Of a stretch of 37,874 nt of DNA, positions 4,957-30,920 are shown piece after piece. Made by a program: the position numbers and the translations under genes. Every line of letters starts with the position of its first letter. Position 1 is the first letter of the stretch. The stretch lies in NCBI GenBank assembly GCA_029934065.1, contig JAOZMX010000008.1:1-37874 (forward strand), written 5' to 3'. The stretch is from Bacteroidales bacterium (GTDB lineage Bacteria > Bacteroidota > Bacteroidia > Bacteroidales > 4484-276). The notes below the pieces were generated by a model. It was not told the origin of the DNA. It saw only the letters and a list, made by a program, of their open reading frames with translations, and did not search any database.

Positions 4957-6309
4957 ATGTCAGAAACAATAACGATTAAAAAAGGATTTGACATTCGCCT
5001 TGCCGGTGAAGCGGAAAAGACGATCACCGAGATGGAAGCGGACATGTATGCCGTCAAACCGACCGATTTCACGGGTGTTTTTCCAAAAATGCTTGTGCGC
5101 GAAGGTGATAAAGTAAAGGCAGGTACTTTGCTTTTTTACGACAAATACCGGGAGAACATCAAATTTTCGTCACCGGTAAGCGGTACGGTAAAAGAGATCA
5201 AACGTGGCCCCAAACGGGTGTTGCTCGAAATAAAGATCGTGCCCGATGCCGCACAGGAGTATGAGGATTTTGGTGCCGCCGATCCCAGTAAGCTGGGCAG
5301 GGAGGAAATTGTTGAAAAGATGCTTGCCAGCGGGGTATGGCCGGTCATCAGGCAAAGACCTTACACCGTGGTGGCCAATCCTGAAGACGACCCGAAGGCC
5401 ATTTTCATCTCTGCTTTCGACACGGCACCGCTGGCACCCGATTACGATCTGATCATTCACGGACACGGCGACGCTTTTCAGGCCGGCCTTGATGCCCTGA
5501 AAAAGCTGACTTCGGGGGAGGTACACCTGAACCTGCCTGCCGGAGTCACGGTATCCAAAGTTTTTTCCAACTCAAAGAATATACGGTTTAATTATTTCAA
5601 AGGGCCTCATCCTGCCGGGGACGTTGGCCCCCAGATCAACAAAACCGACCCCATCAACAAAGGTGAAGTAGTATGGCATCTGCGTCCGCAGGAAGTGCTG
5701 ACCATCGGCAGGCTTTTTCTCGAAGGCCGTTTCAATGCCGAACGCCTCGTTGCCCTTACCGGCTCGGAAGTGCTGAAACCCCGTTATTACAAAACGAAAA
5801 TGGGAGCATCGATAAAAGGGATGGTGGAAAACAACGTTGCCGACGGACATTTGAGGTACATCAGCGGCAATGTGCTGACAGGAAAAAAGATTGCTCACGA
5901 CGGTTTTATCGGATTCTACCATTCGCAAATAACAGTAATTCCTGAAGGGGACTACTACGAGCTTTTCGGATGGTTGTTGCCGGGATTCGGAAAATTCAGC
6001 TTTTCGGGCGCCTATCCCACTTTCCTTAATCCGGGCCATAAAAAATTCCGTCTCGACACGAACCTTCACGGTGGGCGCCGGGCATTGGTGATGACCGGGA
6101 AGATGGAAAAAGTCTTTCCTTTCGACATTTACCCCATGCAACTGCTCAAAGCAATCATTGTCGAGGATATTGATGCAATGGAAAATCTCGGCATTTACGA
6201 AATTGACGAAGAGGATTTTGCCTTGTGCGAATACGTCGATACCTCAAAGACCGAAATCCAGTCCATCATAAGAAAAGGGCTGGATATGATGAGAAAAGAA
6301 ATGAGTTAA
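4957..6309 (+). CDS. nqrA: Na+-translocating NADH:quinone reductase subunit A
   Basis: The N-terminal KKGFDIRLAGEAEK...VKPTDFTGVFPKMLVREGDKVKAGTLLFYDK and gene order nqrABCDEF support NqrA. Confidence 0.96.
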   Translation: MSETITIKKGFDIRLAGEAEKTITEMEADMYAVKPTDFTGVFPKMLVREGDKVKAGTLLFYDKYRENIKFSSPVSGTVKEIKRGPKRVLLEIKIVPDAAQEYEDFGAADPSKLGREEIVEKMLASGVWPVIRQRPYTVVANPEDDPKAIFISAFDTAPLAPDYDLIIHGHGDAFQAGLDALKKLTSGEVHLNLPAGVTVSKVFSNSKNIRFNYFKGPHPAGDVGPQINKTDPINKGEVVWHLRPQEVLTIGRLFLEGRFNAERLVALTGSEVLKPRYYKTKMGASIKGMVENNVADGHLRYISGNVLTGKKIAHDGFIGFYHSQITVIPEGDYYELFGWLLPGFGKFSFSGAYPTFLNPGHKKFRLDTNLHGGRRALVMTGKMEKVFPFDIYPMQLLKAIIVEDIDAMENLGIYEIDEEDFALCEYVDTSKTEIQSIIRKGLDMMRKEMS

Positions 6310-6334: not shown

Positions 6335-7501
6335 ATGAGTTCATTAAGAAAAACCGTTGATAAAATAAAGCCCTATTTCGAAAAAGGCGGGAAATTTGAA
6401 TACCTGCATTCAACCTTCGAGGCTTTTGAAACTTTTTTGTTTGTCCCCGATACCACCACCACATCAGGAAGTCATATCCGCGATTATATCGACATGAAAC
6501 GGACGATGACGATAGTGGTTCTGGCGCTTACGCCGCTGCTGTTGTTCGGGATGTGGAACGTAGGTTACCAGCATTTTTTGTCGTACGGCGAAGAGGCCAG
6601 CTTGTGGCAAAATTTCTGGTTCGGCTTTTTGAAAGTCTTCCCCATCCTTGTGGTTTCTTATGTTGTGGGGCTGGGGATTGAGTTTGCTTTTGCACAGGTG
6701 AGAGGCCACGAAGTGAACGAAGGATTTCTGGTGACGGGTTTTCTGATCCCGTTGATTGTTCCGCCCGACACGCCGTTGTGGATGGTTGCGCTGGCTACTG
6801 CCTTTGCCGTTATCATCGGCAAGGAGGTTTTCGGCGGCACGGGGATGAATATCCTGAACCCGGCGTTGCTGGCACGTGCGTTTCTCTTTTTCGCCTATCC
6901 GCAGGACATGTCGGGCGAGAAGGTGTGGATTGCCGAAAAAGCGGATGCCTTTTCGGGCGCTACTCCGCTGGGCAAATTGCTCGTGGGTGAGCCGTTGAGC
7001 ACACTGCCCCATGCTTCGGATATGTTTTGGGGGCTGATACCCGGCTCCATCGGCGAAACTTCAACATTCCTGATCCTGCTTGGAGGCCTTTTCCTGATCA
7101 TCACGGGCATCGGAAGCTGGCGGGTGATGCTATCGGTTTTCATCGGCGGATTCGGCCTTGCCGGATTTTTATGGATACTGGCTCATTATACCGGCGTGGA
7201 CAATGCCTATATGTCTATCCCGCCTTATTACCACCTGATCATGGGCGGATTTGCATTCGGCGCGGTGTTCATGGCCACCGACCCGGTAACTGCGGCGCAG
7301 ACCAACAAAGGGAAATGGATTTACGGAATACTGATCGGGGTGCTGGTCATTATCATACGTGTGTTCAATCCCGCCTATCCCGAAGGGATGATGCTTGCCA
7401 TCCTGCTGATGAATGTATTTGCTCCGCTCATTGATCATTTTGTGGTGGAAGCCAATATTAAAAAGCGGTTGAAAAGAATTAAAGTTCAAACAGTGAAATA
7501 A
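6335..7501 (+). CDS. nqrB: Na+-translocating NADH:quinone reductase subunit B
   Basis: Polytopic membrane protein with FMN-attachment-type motif SGATPLG and GKEVFGGTGMNILNPALLARAFLFFAYP; operon context. Confidence 0.96.
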   Translation: MSSLRKTVDKIKPYFEKGGKFEYLHSTFEAFETFLFVPDTTTTSGSHIRDYIDMKRTMTIVVLALTPLLLFGMWNVGYQHFLSYGEEASLWQNFWFGFLKVFPILVVSYVVGLGIEFAFAQVRGHEVNEGFLVTGFLIPLIVPPDTPLWMVALATAFAVIIGKEVFGGTGMNILNPALLARAFLFFAYPQDMSGEKVWIAEKADAFSGATPLGKLLVGEPLSTLPHASDMFWGLIPGSIGETSTFLILLGGLFLIITGIGSWRVMLSVFIGGFGLAGFLWILAHYTGVDNAYMSIPPYYHLIMGGFAFGAVFMATDPVTAAQTNKGKWIYGILIGVLVIIIRVFNPAYPEGMMLAILLMNVFAPLIDHFVVEANIKKRLKRIKVQTVK

Positions 7502-7512
7502 ATTATTGTCCT

Positions 7513-8304
7513 ATGTTTACAAACAGATATATTTTTACGTATTCCTCGGTGATGGTAATCCTGGTGGCGGCTATTCTTTCAACGGCTTCGATGGTTTTGA
7601 AGCCATACCAGGAGGCCAACATAAGGGCTGAAAAGATACAGGGCATCCTTGCTTCGGCCAATATCCAAACCAGCCGTAAGGATGCCGAAGAGAATTTCAG
7701 GAAACATATTCTTGAAGAGATCGCCGTGGATACCGCCGGCAACGTGGTGATGAAAACCACTGACGGCAAGACGGAGTGGACCAAAGAAGGGGAAAAAATT
7801 AAAAATGCCGTGAAGTACACCCGCCCTTTCGACATTAACCTGAAGGAAGAGCTGGCCCTTGAAGAAGAGGCCCGACAGGGCAAAGCAACGCGCTCGCCCA
7901 TCTTTCCGCTGTTCAAAATGAAAAACAACGGAAAAGAATATTATGTGGTGCCGGTAAGGGGCACGGGACTGTGGGGGCCCATCTGGGGAAATATCGCTTT
8001 TGAAAAGGATTTCAACACCATTGCAGGTGCCACCTTCGATCACAAAGGAGAAACCCCGGGGCTCGGTGCCGAGATCAAAACCGCATGGTTTGAAGATGAA
8101 TTCAAAGGGAAAACAATCTTCGACAAAGACCGTCATTTTGTTTCGGTAGCCGTGGTCAAGGGAGGTGTGAAAAACAGCAACATCCCGCTGATCCATGGCG
8201 TTGATGCGATTTCCGGAGGCACCATCACCAGTCATGGCGTTGACAAAATGTTGAGAACCTGCCTGAAAAATTATGTACCGTACATCGAAAAAAACATTCA
8301 ATAA
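7513..8304 (+). CDS. nqrC: Na+-translocating NADH:quinone reductase subunit C
   Basis: Single N-terminal [41 protein letters not shown], and FMN-attachment-like motif [13 protein letters not shown]; operon context. Confidence 0.95.
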
Positions 8305-8305
8305 A

Positions 8306-8953
8306 ATGAGCAATAACAGAGAATCATTATTTTCGGCGAAAAACAGAAAGTTGCTTCTTACTCCGTTGAGTAAGGAAAATCCGATTACGATCCAGGTGCT
8401 TGGAATTTGCTCTGCACTGGCGGTTACCGTGAAATTACAACCGGCTTTTGTCATGGCCGTTTCGGTGATGGCGGTGCTTGCCGTGGGCAATGTGCTGATC
8501 TCGGCACTTCGCAAAACCATTGCACCCCGCATCCGCATCATCGTTCAACTGGTGGTCATCGCTTCGCTGGTGATACTCGTCGATCAGGTATTGAAAGCCT
8601 TTGTTTACGACATCAGCAAACAACTCTCGGTGTTTGTGGGGCTTATCATCACCAACTGCATCATCATGGGACGTTTCGAAGCCTTTGCCATGAGCAATAA
8701 ACCGTGGCCTGCTTTTTTGGACGGTATCGGCAATGCCGCCGGCTACGGACTCATCCTCATCATCGTGGCCTTTTTCAGGGAGTTATTCGGGTCGGGAACA
8801 TTGTGGGGCTACAAGGTCATACCGCAGGGATTTTATGAGTTCGGCTACAAAGACAACGGCCTGATGATCCTTCCGCCCATGGCACTGATCGTGGTGGGCA
8901 TCATCATCTGGGTGCAGAGGAGCAAGGATAAGGAACTTATTGAGGACAAATAG
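8306..8953 (+). CDS. nqrD: Na+-translocating NADH:quinone reductase subunit D (start moved to ATG at 8306, just after nqrC stop)
   Basis: [54 protein letters not shown] and [18 protein letters not shown] are typical of NqrD. The provided ORF begins earlier, inside nqrC, so the in-frame ATG at 8306 is preferred. Confidence 0.94.
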
Positions 8954-8978
8954 TTATTGAAATAATTATGAATATCAA

Positions 8979-9019
8979 TTGATATATGATGTCAGATGTT
9001 AGATGTGAGATATCAGATG
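8979..9019 (+). repeat. Left arm of imperfect inverted repeat flanking the four-helix-bundle ORF
   Basis: TTGATATATGATGTCAGATGTTAGATGTGAGATATCAGATG matches the reverse complement of 9435-9475 at 33 of 41 positions (hand alignment, no gaps). Confidence 0.85.
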
Positions 9020-9060
9020 TTAGATTTGAGTAAAATTTTGATTTTAAGAAATTAATACGG

Positions 9061-9420
9061 ATGAAGCAAGAAGATTTGGAAAATAGGTTGATTGAATATG
9101 CGGCAAATATTGTTGAACTTATCAATTTGCTACCTGTATCAGTTGCCGGGAATCATCTTGCAAAGCAACTCATCAGATCGGGCACAGCACCGGCATTAAA
9201 TTATGGAGAGGCAAGAGGAGCAGAATCGAGAAATGATTTTATTCATAAAAATAAAGTTGTTTTAAAAGAATTAAGAGAATCGTTGATCACCTTAAAAATA
9301 ATCAACTCGGTTAGTTTAATTTCTAACGATAATCATTTGTTAAATCAACTTCTAAACGACAGCAATGAGTTGGTTTCAATTTTTGTTGTAACTCTAAAGA
9401 CTCTTGGAACTAAACAATAA
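9061..9420 (+). CDS. Four-helix bundle protein (23S rRNA intervening-sequence/S23-like family)
   Basis: 119 aa: ANIVELINLLPVSVAGNHLAKQLIRSGTAPALNYGEARGAESRNDFIHKNKVVLKELRESLITLKIIN is the characteristic IVS/S23-like signature (Q-x-x-R-S-G/T-x-A-x-x-N-x-x-E-A...SRxDFIHK...LKELRE...L). Confidence 0.9.
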   Translation: MKQEDLENRLIEYAANIVELINLLPVSVAGNHLAKQLIRSGTAPALNYGEARGAESRNDFIHKNKVVLKELRESLITLKIINSVSLISNDNHLLNQLLNDSNELVSIFVVTLKTLGTKQ

Positions 9421-9434
9421 ACGTATTATCAAAA

Positions 9435-9475
9435 CATCAAACATCTGAGATCTAAGATCGGACATCAAATATCAA
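9435..9475 (-). repeat. Right arm of imperfect inverted repeat flanking the four-helix-bundle ORF
   Basis: The reverse complement TTGATATTTGATGTCCGATCTTAGATCTCAGATGTTTGATG aligns to 8979-9019. Confidence 0.85.
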
Positions 9476-9513
9476 ACAAAAGTGAATTAAACAGATAAAA
9501 AAAAAGATAAATT

Positions 9514-10131
9514 ATGGAAAACCTCATTAACATATTTGTAAAGTCGATTTTTATCGACAACATGATTTTTGCCTATTTCCTCGGCATGTGTTCGTATCTT
9601 GCGGTTTCCAAAACCGTCAAGACATCCATGGGGCTGGGAATTGCCGTGGTTTTTGTGCTTGGCATCACCGTTCCGGTGGATTACCTCATCAACAAATACC
9701 TGTTGACGGCTGGGGCATTAACATGGATTTCGCCGGCACTGGCCGATGTTGATTTGAGCTTTTTAAGCTTTATCATGTTCATCGCGGTCATCGCTTCGAT
9801 GGTGCAACTGGTGGAGATGGTTATTGAGAAGTTTTCGCCGGCACTTTATTCTTCGCTCGGCATCTTTCTTCCGTTAATTGCTGTCAATTGTGCCATACTC
9901 GGGGGGTCGCTTTTCATGCAGGAGCGCGAATATGCATCGGTTGCGGAAGCCACCTCCTTCGGTCTGGGGTCGGGTGTGGGCTGGTTTCTGGCCATCGTAG
10001 GCATTGCCGCCATACGGGAAAAAATCAGGTACTCGAATGTTCCCGCTCCGCTCAAAGGGCTGGGGATCACCTTTATCATCACCGGACTCATGGGCATTGC
10101 CTTTATGAGCTTCATGGGCATTAAACTGTAA
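9514..10131 (+). CDS. nqrE: Na+-translocating NADH:quinone reductase subunit E
   Basis: [45 protein letters not shown] and [20 protein letters not shown] are NqrE signatures. Confidence 0.96.
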
Positions 10132-10192: not shown

Positions 10193-11449
10193 ATGGTTTT
10201 AGAAATTGGAATAGGCGGAGTAATCGGCATCAGCATTGCCATTTTTCTGACCATCATCATTTTGTTGGTGGCTTTGCTGCTTTTTGCCCGGAAAAAACTC
10301 ACCCCGCAGGGAAAAGTAACCATTACCATCAACGACGAGAAAGAGCTTGAGGTGGATCCCGGGAGTTCGTTACTTACAACTCTTGCCACAGAGGGCATCT
10401 ATCTTCCGTCGGCATGCGGAGGCGGCGGCACCTGTGCCATGTGCAAAGTTCAGGTGCTCGAAGGCGGCGGCTCGATACTTCCCACCGAAGTGGGCTATTT
10501 TACCCGCAAAGAGCAGATGAACCACTGGCGGCTGGGTTGTCAGGTCAAGGTGCGCGAAAGCCTGAAAATTCATGTTGCCCCCGAAATTTTCGGGATCAAG
10601 AAATGGGAGTGTGAGGTAATTTCAAACCGTAATGTGGCCACCTTCATCAAAGAGTTTGTGGTGAAACTTCCGGAAGGCGAAACGCTGAATTTCAGATCGG
10701 GAGGCTACATCCAGATCGATGTGCCGCCCTGCGAAGTGGATTTCAAAGATATCGAGGTGGAAGAGGAATACCGCGACGAATGGGACAAATTCAAGATGTG
10801 GGATCTGAAGATGAAGAATCCCGAACCCATTTTCAGGGCCTATTCCATGGCCAACCATCCCGCCGAAGGAAATATCGTGATGCTGAATATCCGTATTGCC
10901 ACCCCGCCGTGGGACAGAAAAGCCAACGCCTTTATGAAAGTCAATCCGGGAATATGCTCATCCTACATCTTCTCGCGCAAGCCCGGCGACAAAGTGATGA
11001 TCTCGGGTCCCTACGGCGAGTTTTTCATCAAAGATACCGACAAGGAGATGATGTTCATCGGTGGTGGTGCCGGCATGGCGCCCATGCGCTCACATATTTT
11101 TGACCAGTTCCAGACCAAAAAAACAAAACGCAAAGCAACGTTCTGGTATGGTGGTCGCTCGCTACGGGAACTTTTCTATATGGATCATTTCAAAAAGATC
11201 GAAGAGGAATTTCCGAATTTTAAATTTTACGTTGCCCTGTCCGAGCCCAAAAAAGAGGACAACTGGACCGGTTACACGGGATTTATCCATCAGGTCATTT
11301 ACGATAATTATCTGAAAGACCATCCCGAACCCGAAGAGATTGAATATTACATCTGCGGCCCGCCCATGATGAACGACGCCGTGGTAAAAATGCTTGACGA
11401 TCTCGGCGTACCTCCCGAAAATGTGATGTACGACGACTTTGGCGGCTAA
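10193..11449 (+). CDS. nqrF: Na+-translocating NADH:quinone reductase subunit F (2Fe-2S/FAD, NADH-oxidising)
   Basis: The 2Fe-2S ligand motif [17 protein letters not shown], the FAD/NAD domain [26 protein letters not shown], and C-terminal [22 protein letters not shown]...DDFGG. Confidence 0.97.
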
Positions 11450-19567: not shown

Positions 19568-19625
19568 AGGAAAACCGGAAACGTTTTGGAAGGGGATTCT
19601 TTTCGTGATGGATTGTGAAGGCTCA

Positions 19626-19670
19626 TTTGATGTCAGATGTATGATGTATGATGTTTGATTTTAGATTTGG
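19626..19670 (+). repeat. Solo copy of the GATGT(C/T)AGATGT-type intergenic repeat
   Basis: TTTGATGTCAGATGTATGATGTATGATGTTTGATTTTAGATTTGG. TGATGTCAGATGT (19628-19640) is identical to 8987-8999. Confidence 0.7.
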
Positions 19671-30874: not shown

Positions 30875-30920
30875 CAGATATAAATCTCAAATCTCAAATC
30901 TGCAATCGTTAATCTGAAAT
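30875..30920 (-). repeat. Solo, inverted copy of the GATTTGAG/GATGTTAG-type intergenic repeat
   Basis: CAGATATAAATCTCAAATCTCAAATCTGCAATCGTTAATCTGAAATC. The reverse complement contains GATTTGAGATTTGAGATTTATATCTG, similar to 9011-9030. Confidence 0.55.

Follow-up and report, generated by a model that had tools for sequence, protein, structure and literature searches.

The window analysed here is a 37,874-nt stretch of DNA from a Bacteroidales bacterium (contig C231 of a genome of 3.64 Mb in 297 contigs, 95% complete), and the question that it raises lies within its nqr operon. As the first-pass annotation of this DNA had noted and the sequence bears out, nqrC and nqrD are 1 bp apart, while the gap from the end of nqrD to the start of nqrE is 560 bp. 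The genes on both sides of this insert are intact, and a gene for a four-helix-bundle (FHB) protein lies within it on the nqr strand. What kind of DNA has come to lie here? We consider it about 75% probable that the insert is one copy of a small mobile cassette, similar to the intervening sequences (IVSs) of 23S rRNA, in which an FHB gene is bracketed by inverted arrays of heptamers.

The encoded protein belongs to a recognised family. It scores 62.1 bits against TIGR02436 ('four helix bundle protein', cut-off 24) and 34.0 bits against PF05635 ('23S rRNA-intervening sequence protein', cut-off 33.8), in both cases above the curated cut-off, so that the co-oriented four-helix-bundle open reading frame (ORF) of the first-pass annotation is confirmed. 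The two solved relatives found by sequence, 2rld and 2gsc, contain 5 chains each, and PMC4990558, citing Lin et al. 2006, describes the S23p protein of Xanthomonas campestris as a homopentameric ring of four-helix bundles. By analogy with the solved relative, the FHB protein is probably a ring-shaped pentamer, and such a ring, set against an array of short units, would fit the binding of heptamers.

The inverted arms around this gene are equally real. In their best local pairing (score 23.0) 35 of 43 columns are Watson-Crick, a slight extension of the 33 of 41 first reported for 8979-9019 and 9435-9475, and a separate repeat search returned 39 nt at 77%. What had been missed is their make-up from heptamers: the 5' array matches the pattern AGATNTNAGATNTNAGAT, contains a direct repeat of 21 nt at a spacing of 21, and reads TTGATAT, ATGATGT, CAGATGT, TAGATGT, GAGATAT, CAGATGT and TAGATTT. 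The arm score compares with a 99th percentile of 14.5 and a maximum of 20.5 among 436 mismatched flank pairs, and with a maximum of 13.5 in 109 dinucleotide-preserving shuffles. When the insert is folded as RNA, as first proposed with the arms, these pair in both the minimum free energy (MFE) and the centroid structure, and the MFE of -115.1 lies below that of shuffled sequences (-99.3 +/- 5.8, z -2.74).

The same architecture recurs well beyond this locus. Among 59 Bacteroidales-order relatives, 44 contain TIGR02436, and at 57 of their 109 FHB loci flank complementarity lies above the 99th percentile for mismatched flanks, against about one locus expected; this level was reached by 0 of 109 dinucleotide shuffles and by 2% of other genes at the same loci. 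The flanks also show an excess of identity at lags 7, 14 and 8. The heptamer unit is specific to the locus (for example GACTGTA, GGGTTGC, GAGTTCT, GGAAGAC, AAGGCTC or GGCAGTC), and the array upstream of the gene returns downstream in reverse complement. A common heptamer consensus was considered and set aside, being weak only (A-R-T-N-G-K-S; information 3.35 against a mean of 2.83 and a maximum of 3.00 in shuffles). A second scan, with one genome per species from many phyla, kept 80 named loci and scored 77, of which 46 exceed 14.5 (8 of 308 controls do so) and 35 exceed the set's own 99th percentile of 17.0; the 7-nt period is present in these flanks as well. Plasmid-borne members with inverted arms occur in Nostoc (GGGAACA), Anabaena (GACAGGT), Euhalothece, Treponema, Gemmatirosa and Monoglobus. 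In several further plasmid-borne members inverted arms are weak or absent, and in one from Pseudanabaena the arrays are direct rather than inverted.

A comparison of nqr junctions in related genomes, as the first-pass annotation had proposed, reveals empty sites and a cassette whose presence varies. NqrE was detected in 53 of the 59 relatives and the nqrD-nqrE junction could be read at 30 loci. Four members of the window's family, including the window's genome (G000), have an FHB gene there, the products in G005, G010 and G011 being 63%, 49% and 48% identical to that of the window. Of the other family members, G008 has 139 bp with heptamer-like repeats and no ORF, and G003, G004, G007 and G009 have short junctions of 32-63 bp. 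In most order-level relatives the gap is 5-35 bp with no FHB match; for three of them the gap figure takes in nqrD itself, its stop having been misplaced, and there is still no FHB match. Given a cassette in four family members and order-level relatives without one at this junction, it most simply entered the nqr junction inside the window's family. In a tree of 119 FHB proteins the nqr copies form two separate pairs, G000 with G005 and G010 with G011. A single origin was considered for them; every bootstrap tree requires two changes, whereas the well-supported branches do not force two. The arm sequences differ between the two groups, yet pair inside each: the 5' flank of G000 scores 23.0 and 17.5 against the 3' flanks of G000 and G005, and 13.5 and 11.0 against those of G010 and G011, while the 5' flanks of G010 and G011 show the reverse pattern, with better pairing within their own pair.

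That such elements move, as first suggested, is borne out by target-site duplications in relatives of the element. In plasmid C of Trichormus variabilis (L176) and a Scytonema plasmid (L192) two genes upstream of trbI/virB10 have a cassette between them, and plasmids that lack it there are 97.4-97.8% identical to the filled ones. The empty site reads GTTAAAAAGTAATTAACAAATAATTATG and the filled site GTTAAAAAGTAAT-[AAATCAGAATTCAGGAGTCAG ... CTGACTCCTGAGTTCTTCTTT]-GTAATTAACAAATAATTATG, with a 5-bp duplication of GTAAT. Comparison of Nostoc ATCC 53789 (L185) with Nostoc C057 (L346) gives a second 5-bp duplication, TTCTA, which overlaps the stop codon of the upstream gene. Other candidate empty sites were not clean, namely a TraM operon (L173/L187), L175/L349, and a cas6-cas4 junction (L174/L345) at which the other plasmid has a different insert. 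Within one Bacteroidales-order genome (G033) two close copies occupy unrelated sites and both have AAGGCTC-type arms; the arms therefore travel with the gene. On a plasmid of Nostoc sp. ATCC 53789 (pNsp_c, L189) we also observed an element, about 250 bp long and with no ORF, whose inverted arms are of the GGGAAC type, at the site where relatives have the full cassette.

The gmk-nadD junction of Flavobacterium provides a further set of filled and unfilled sites. We counted 27 distinct examples with the cassette; in many other species the junction holds a hairpin with no ORF (16 of 20 tested beat all 20 of their own shuffles), and in some it is nearly empty. Junctions without FHB often contain a hairpin of about 110 bp (CGCAGAGATTCACAAAGA ... 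CTTTGTG ... CGAATCTCTGCG; L325-L335), which is either an abundant-looking ORF-less relative or another element at the same hotspot, and some (L322, L323, L344) hold a different insert of about 570 bp without FHB-type arms.

Between co-directional neighbours, which were called mechanically from ORFs, the cassette nearly always runs in sense with them: this holds for 85 of 87 such loci in the Bacteroidales order (p 5e-23) and 53 of 54 in the named set (p 6e-15), or 138 of 141 gene pairs when pooled. In loci whose arms score over 14.5, G outnumbers C in the 5' arm at 52 of 57 and 44 of 46, respectively. The Flavobacterium copies have a median dN/dS of 0.11 over 184 pairs, which indicates purifying selection, and the nqr copies of G010 and G011 differ by dN 0.08 and dS 0.78.

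Taken as a mobile cassette, the element would be about 0.4-0.5 kb long, with an FHB gene of the superfamily that unites 23S IVS proteins with Avd, the accessory protein of diversity-generating retroelements (DGRs), and would depend on read-through transcription of its host operon, as a passenger of operon transcripts. In RNA its arms would fold into a hairpin, as they perhaps do in DNA when the element moves, and the FHB protein may bind the heptamer arrays and serve the element's own maintenance or movement. By analogy with 23S IVSs, RNase III could plausibly trim this stem in the nqr mRNA. Several points weigh against this reading. Both clean target duplications come from Nostocales plasmid elements that are related to each other and lie outside the window's lineage, and at the window's own site the short junctions of relatives are too diverged for a duplication to be read. 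No mobility enzyme was found for the cassette, and at about half of the FHB loci arms could not be detected. At the 27 filled gmk-nadD junctions a species' own 5' and 3' arms pair better than arms from different species (16.6 versus 13.0; 0 of 20,000 permutations), which speaks for the cassette, but the permutation test takes no account of shared ancestry. Finally, selection on a sense-strand RNA stem might be expected to leave more G-U than A-C among its mismatches, and the counts of 79 G-U and 115 A-C are the opposite and lend such selection no support. Pairing may therefore be kept by another process, such as copying or conversion between the arms, or action at the level of DNA.

Two further accounts of the insert deserve consideration. 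The FHB protein could be a domesticated regulator: as an RNA-binding protein of the host it would attach to the heptamers around the gene that encodes it and control whatever lies downstream in the operon, here nqrEF. The orientation in sense, the purifying selection and the position of the arms directly beside the downstream start codon would all fit. We nevertheless regard this as unlikely, given a distribution that is patchy among close relatives, host operons that are unrelated, empty sites with duplications and, within a single genome, copies that have recently reached new sites. A non-autonomous element resembling miniature inverted-repeat transposable elements (MITEs), moved in trans by an ordinary transposase with the FHB gene as passenger, would account for the short inverted ends, the 5-bp duplications and the ORF-less derivatives at the same junctions. 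Yet end sequences that vary by locus and keep a 7-nt period are ill suited to recognition by one transposase, and recurrence of the same protein family across phyla, strict sense orientation and purifying selection also speak against it; we judge this account improbable.

The plainest possibility is that FHB genes just adjoin heptamer arrays that are common in these genomes. Arrays away from FHB genes do exist in the window's genome, and heptameric repeats are reported to be over-represented in bacteria generally (PMC4692102). Mere proximity is largely refuted by the mismatched-flank control, matched inverted arms being present at about half of the loci but at 1-3% of controls; moreover the unit differs per locus but agrees between the arms, and the arms move with the gene. 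We give this explanation hardly any weight. The mobile cassette stays our preferred reading.

How does the cassette relate to known systems? With 23S rRNA IVSs that carry an S23p ORF, such as that of Coxiella burnetii (PMC4990558), it shares the protein family by profile, a size of about 0.43 kb, and terminal inverted repeats able to form a stem with the ORF inside the loop, as the window's arms do around the FHB gene. In Coxiella 23S rRNA, cleavage at the stem and excision of the IVS by RNase III are established (PMC4990558). The window cassette differs in that it sits in a protein-coding operon, between nqrD and nqrE and not inside a 23S rRNA gene, and in that its arms are heptamer arrays; moreover, the Coxiella ORF is reported to be probably unexpressed and decaying, whereas the cassette ORFs that we analysed are under purifying selection. 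We do not file the cassette as a 23S IVS because location, a defining feature of IVSs, fails, and Rfam gave no match in the window. Of the first-pass idea of an IVS-like element relocated into an mRNA, the first half is supported by protein family, inverted-repeat ends and co-directionality. Relocation from 23S finds no support: the operon form occurs across many phyla, and a crude screen for nine 23S words found none in the named loci. The 23S IVS may be one special site of a larger family.

Avd of DGRs is the second point of comparison. With the PHROG 'Avd protein of DGR', matches were obtained for cassette proteins from cyanobacteria (E 4e-5 and 2e-9) but not for the window protein, and no PF00078 reverse transcriptase was found in the window's genome at its 95% completeness (template and variable repeats were not searched). 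Dependence on a reverse transcriptase was also considered for the cassettes at large and found unsupported: PF00078 was not detected in 22 of the 44 genomes with FHB genes, and the number of FHB genes tracks genome size more closely than reverse transcriptase number; as far as the assemblies show, the enzyme is not required in the same genome.

MITEs and small mobile repeats of the repetitive extragenic palindrome type (REP/REPIN) share with the cassette short inverted-repeat ends, target duplication in two cases and ORF-less derivatives at the same sites, but the cassette's ends are not one conserved sequence, it encodes a protein that is not a transposase, and it lies nearly always in sense with the operon. 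Short tandem heptamer repeats, such as cyanobacterial short tandemly repeated repetitive sequences (STRRs), TAACTGA repeats (PMC4679880) and GGGAATC repeats (PMC4692102), share the period of 7, the intergenic position and the many units; the papers on them (MacGregor 2015, PMC4679880; Rehm 2015, PMC4692102) concern direct repeats and relate them neither to FHB genes nor to inverted arms that match. A table for Flavobacterium columnare places an FHB gene between the guanylate kinase and nicotinate mononucleotide adenylyltransferase genes without comment (PMC5524665). In the open-licence literature we found no paper that ties heptamer arrays to FHB genes or treats the form carried in operons.

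Both the protein family and the view of IVSs as mobile elements are already known; this kind of cassette is widespread and apparently unrecognised until now, and there is a real chance that it forms a class of its own. Two orphan observations would be joined, the abundant S23/FHB family (known mainly from 23S rRNA inserts and DGR Avd) and the excess of 7-nt tandem repeats in bacteria. If true, bacteria of different phyla have a common cassette in core operons (nqr, gmk-nadD, cas, restriction-modification and others) that has so far not been seen as a single element, and the question of how two arms of free sequence are kept matched can be tested directly. More tentatively, FHB genes with inverted heptamer arrays could be a hitherto unrecognised class of mobile element over much of the bacterial tree, its ends recognised by repeat period and hairpin shape rather than fixed sequence, with the ring-shaped FHB protein as binding factor and its decay products as a main source of unexplained bacterial heptamer repeats; we hold this wider proposal to be possible, with the odds somewhat against it.

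The features of the locus are collected below; the start of nqrD is placed 1 bp past the nqrC stop, the mechanical ORF beginning at 8273.

Table. The nqr operon of the window and the insert between nqrD and nqrE.
Feature	Position	Strand	Evidence or remark
nqrA	4957-6309
nqrB	6335-7501
nqrC	7513-8304		stop codon 8302-8304
nqrD, 5' neighbour of insert	8306-8953	+	TIGR01939 300.8 bits (cut-off 244.85)
5' heptamer array, 7 imperfect units, consensus NNGATNT	8979-9027	+	read from sequence
5' inverted-repeat arm	8979-9021	+	pairs with 9433-9475, score 23.0
FHB gene, 119 aa	9061-9420	+	TIGR02436 E 5e-17; PF05635 E 4e-8; profile matches 2rld, 2gsc
3' inverted-repeat arm, reverse complement of heptamer array	9433-9475	+	pairs with 5' arm in predicted fold
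nqrE, 3' neighbour of insert	9514-10131	+	TIGR01940 311 bits (cut-off 247.55)
nqrF	10193-11449

Some FHB cassettes lie in operons of defence systems: in type I-D cas operons between cas6 and cas4 (L171 and L174, the Anabaena cassette being among those between cas6 and cas4) and in a type I restriction-modification operon between hsdS and hsdR (L186); the Monoglobus cassette has this setting. Such siting could make FHB cassettes resemble defence genes by association. Against the PADLOC defence models the window protein gave weak, partial matches alone (E 6e-4 and 0.02), and three relatives gave none. At one further locus (L169, G038:C67) two near-identical FHB genes stand in tandem about 540 bp apart, as if the cassette had been duplicated in place.

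Arrays resembling the window's heptamers are dispersed through the same genome; together with the varying presence of the cassette among relatives, this departs from the case that the first-pass annotation had named as refuting its reading, in which all close relatives have the ORF at the same place and no arm-like repeats occur elsewhere. In the window, an NNGATNT-type array lies behind an alpha-2-macroglobulin gene (19625-19669), with no inverted partner and no FHB gene, and a short array AAATCTCAAATCTCAAATCTGCAATCGTTAATCTG lies between two genes on the minus strand side (30884-30917), also with no inverted partner. Away from FHB genes, a composite intergenic repeat, GATATCAGATGTCCGATGTTAGATGTTTGATAT followed by AGATTGAAGATTAACGATTTTAGATTT, occurs at many sites in this genome (loci L004, L005, L006, L007, L012, L013 and L015), and represents either decayed cassettes or an independent repeat family.
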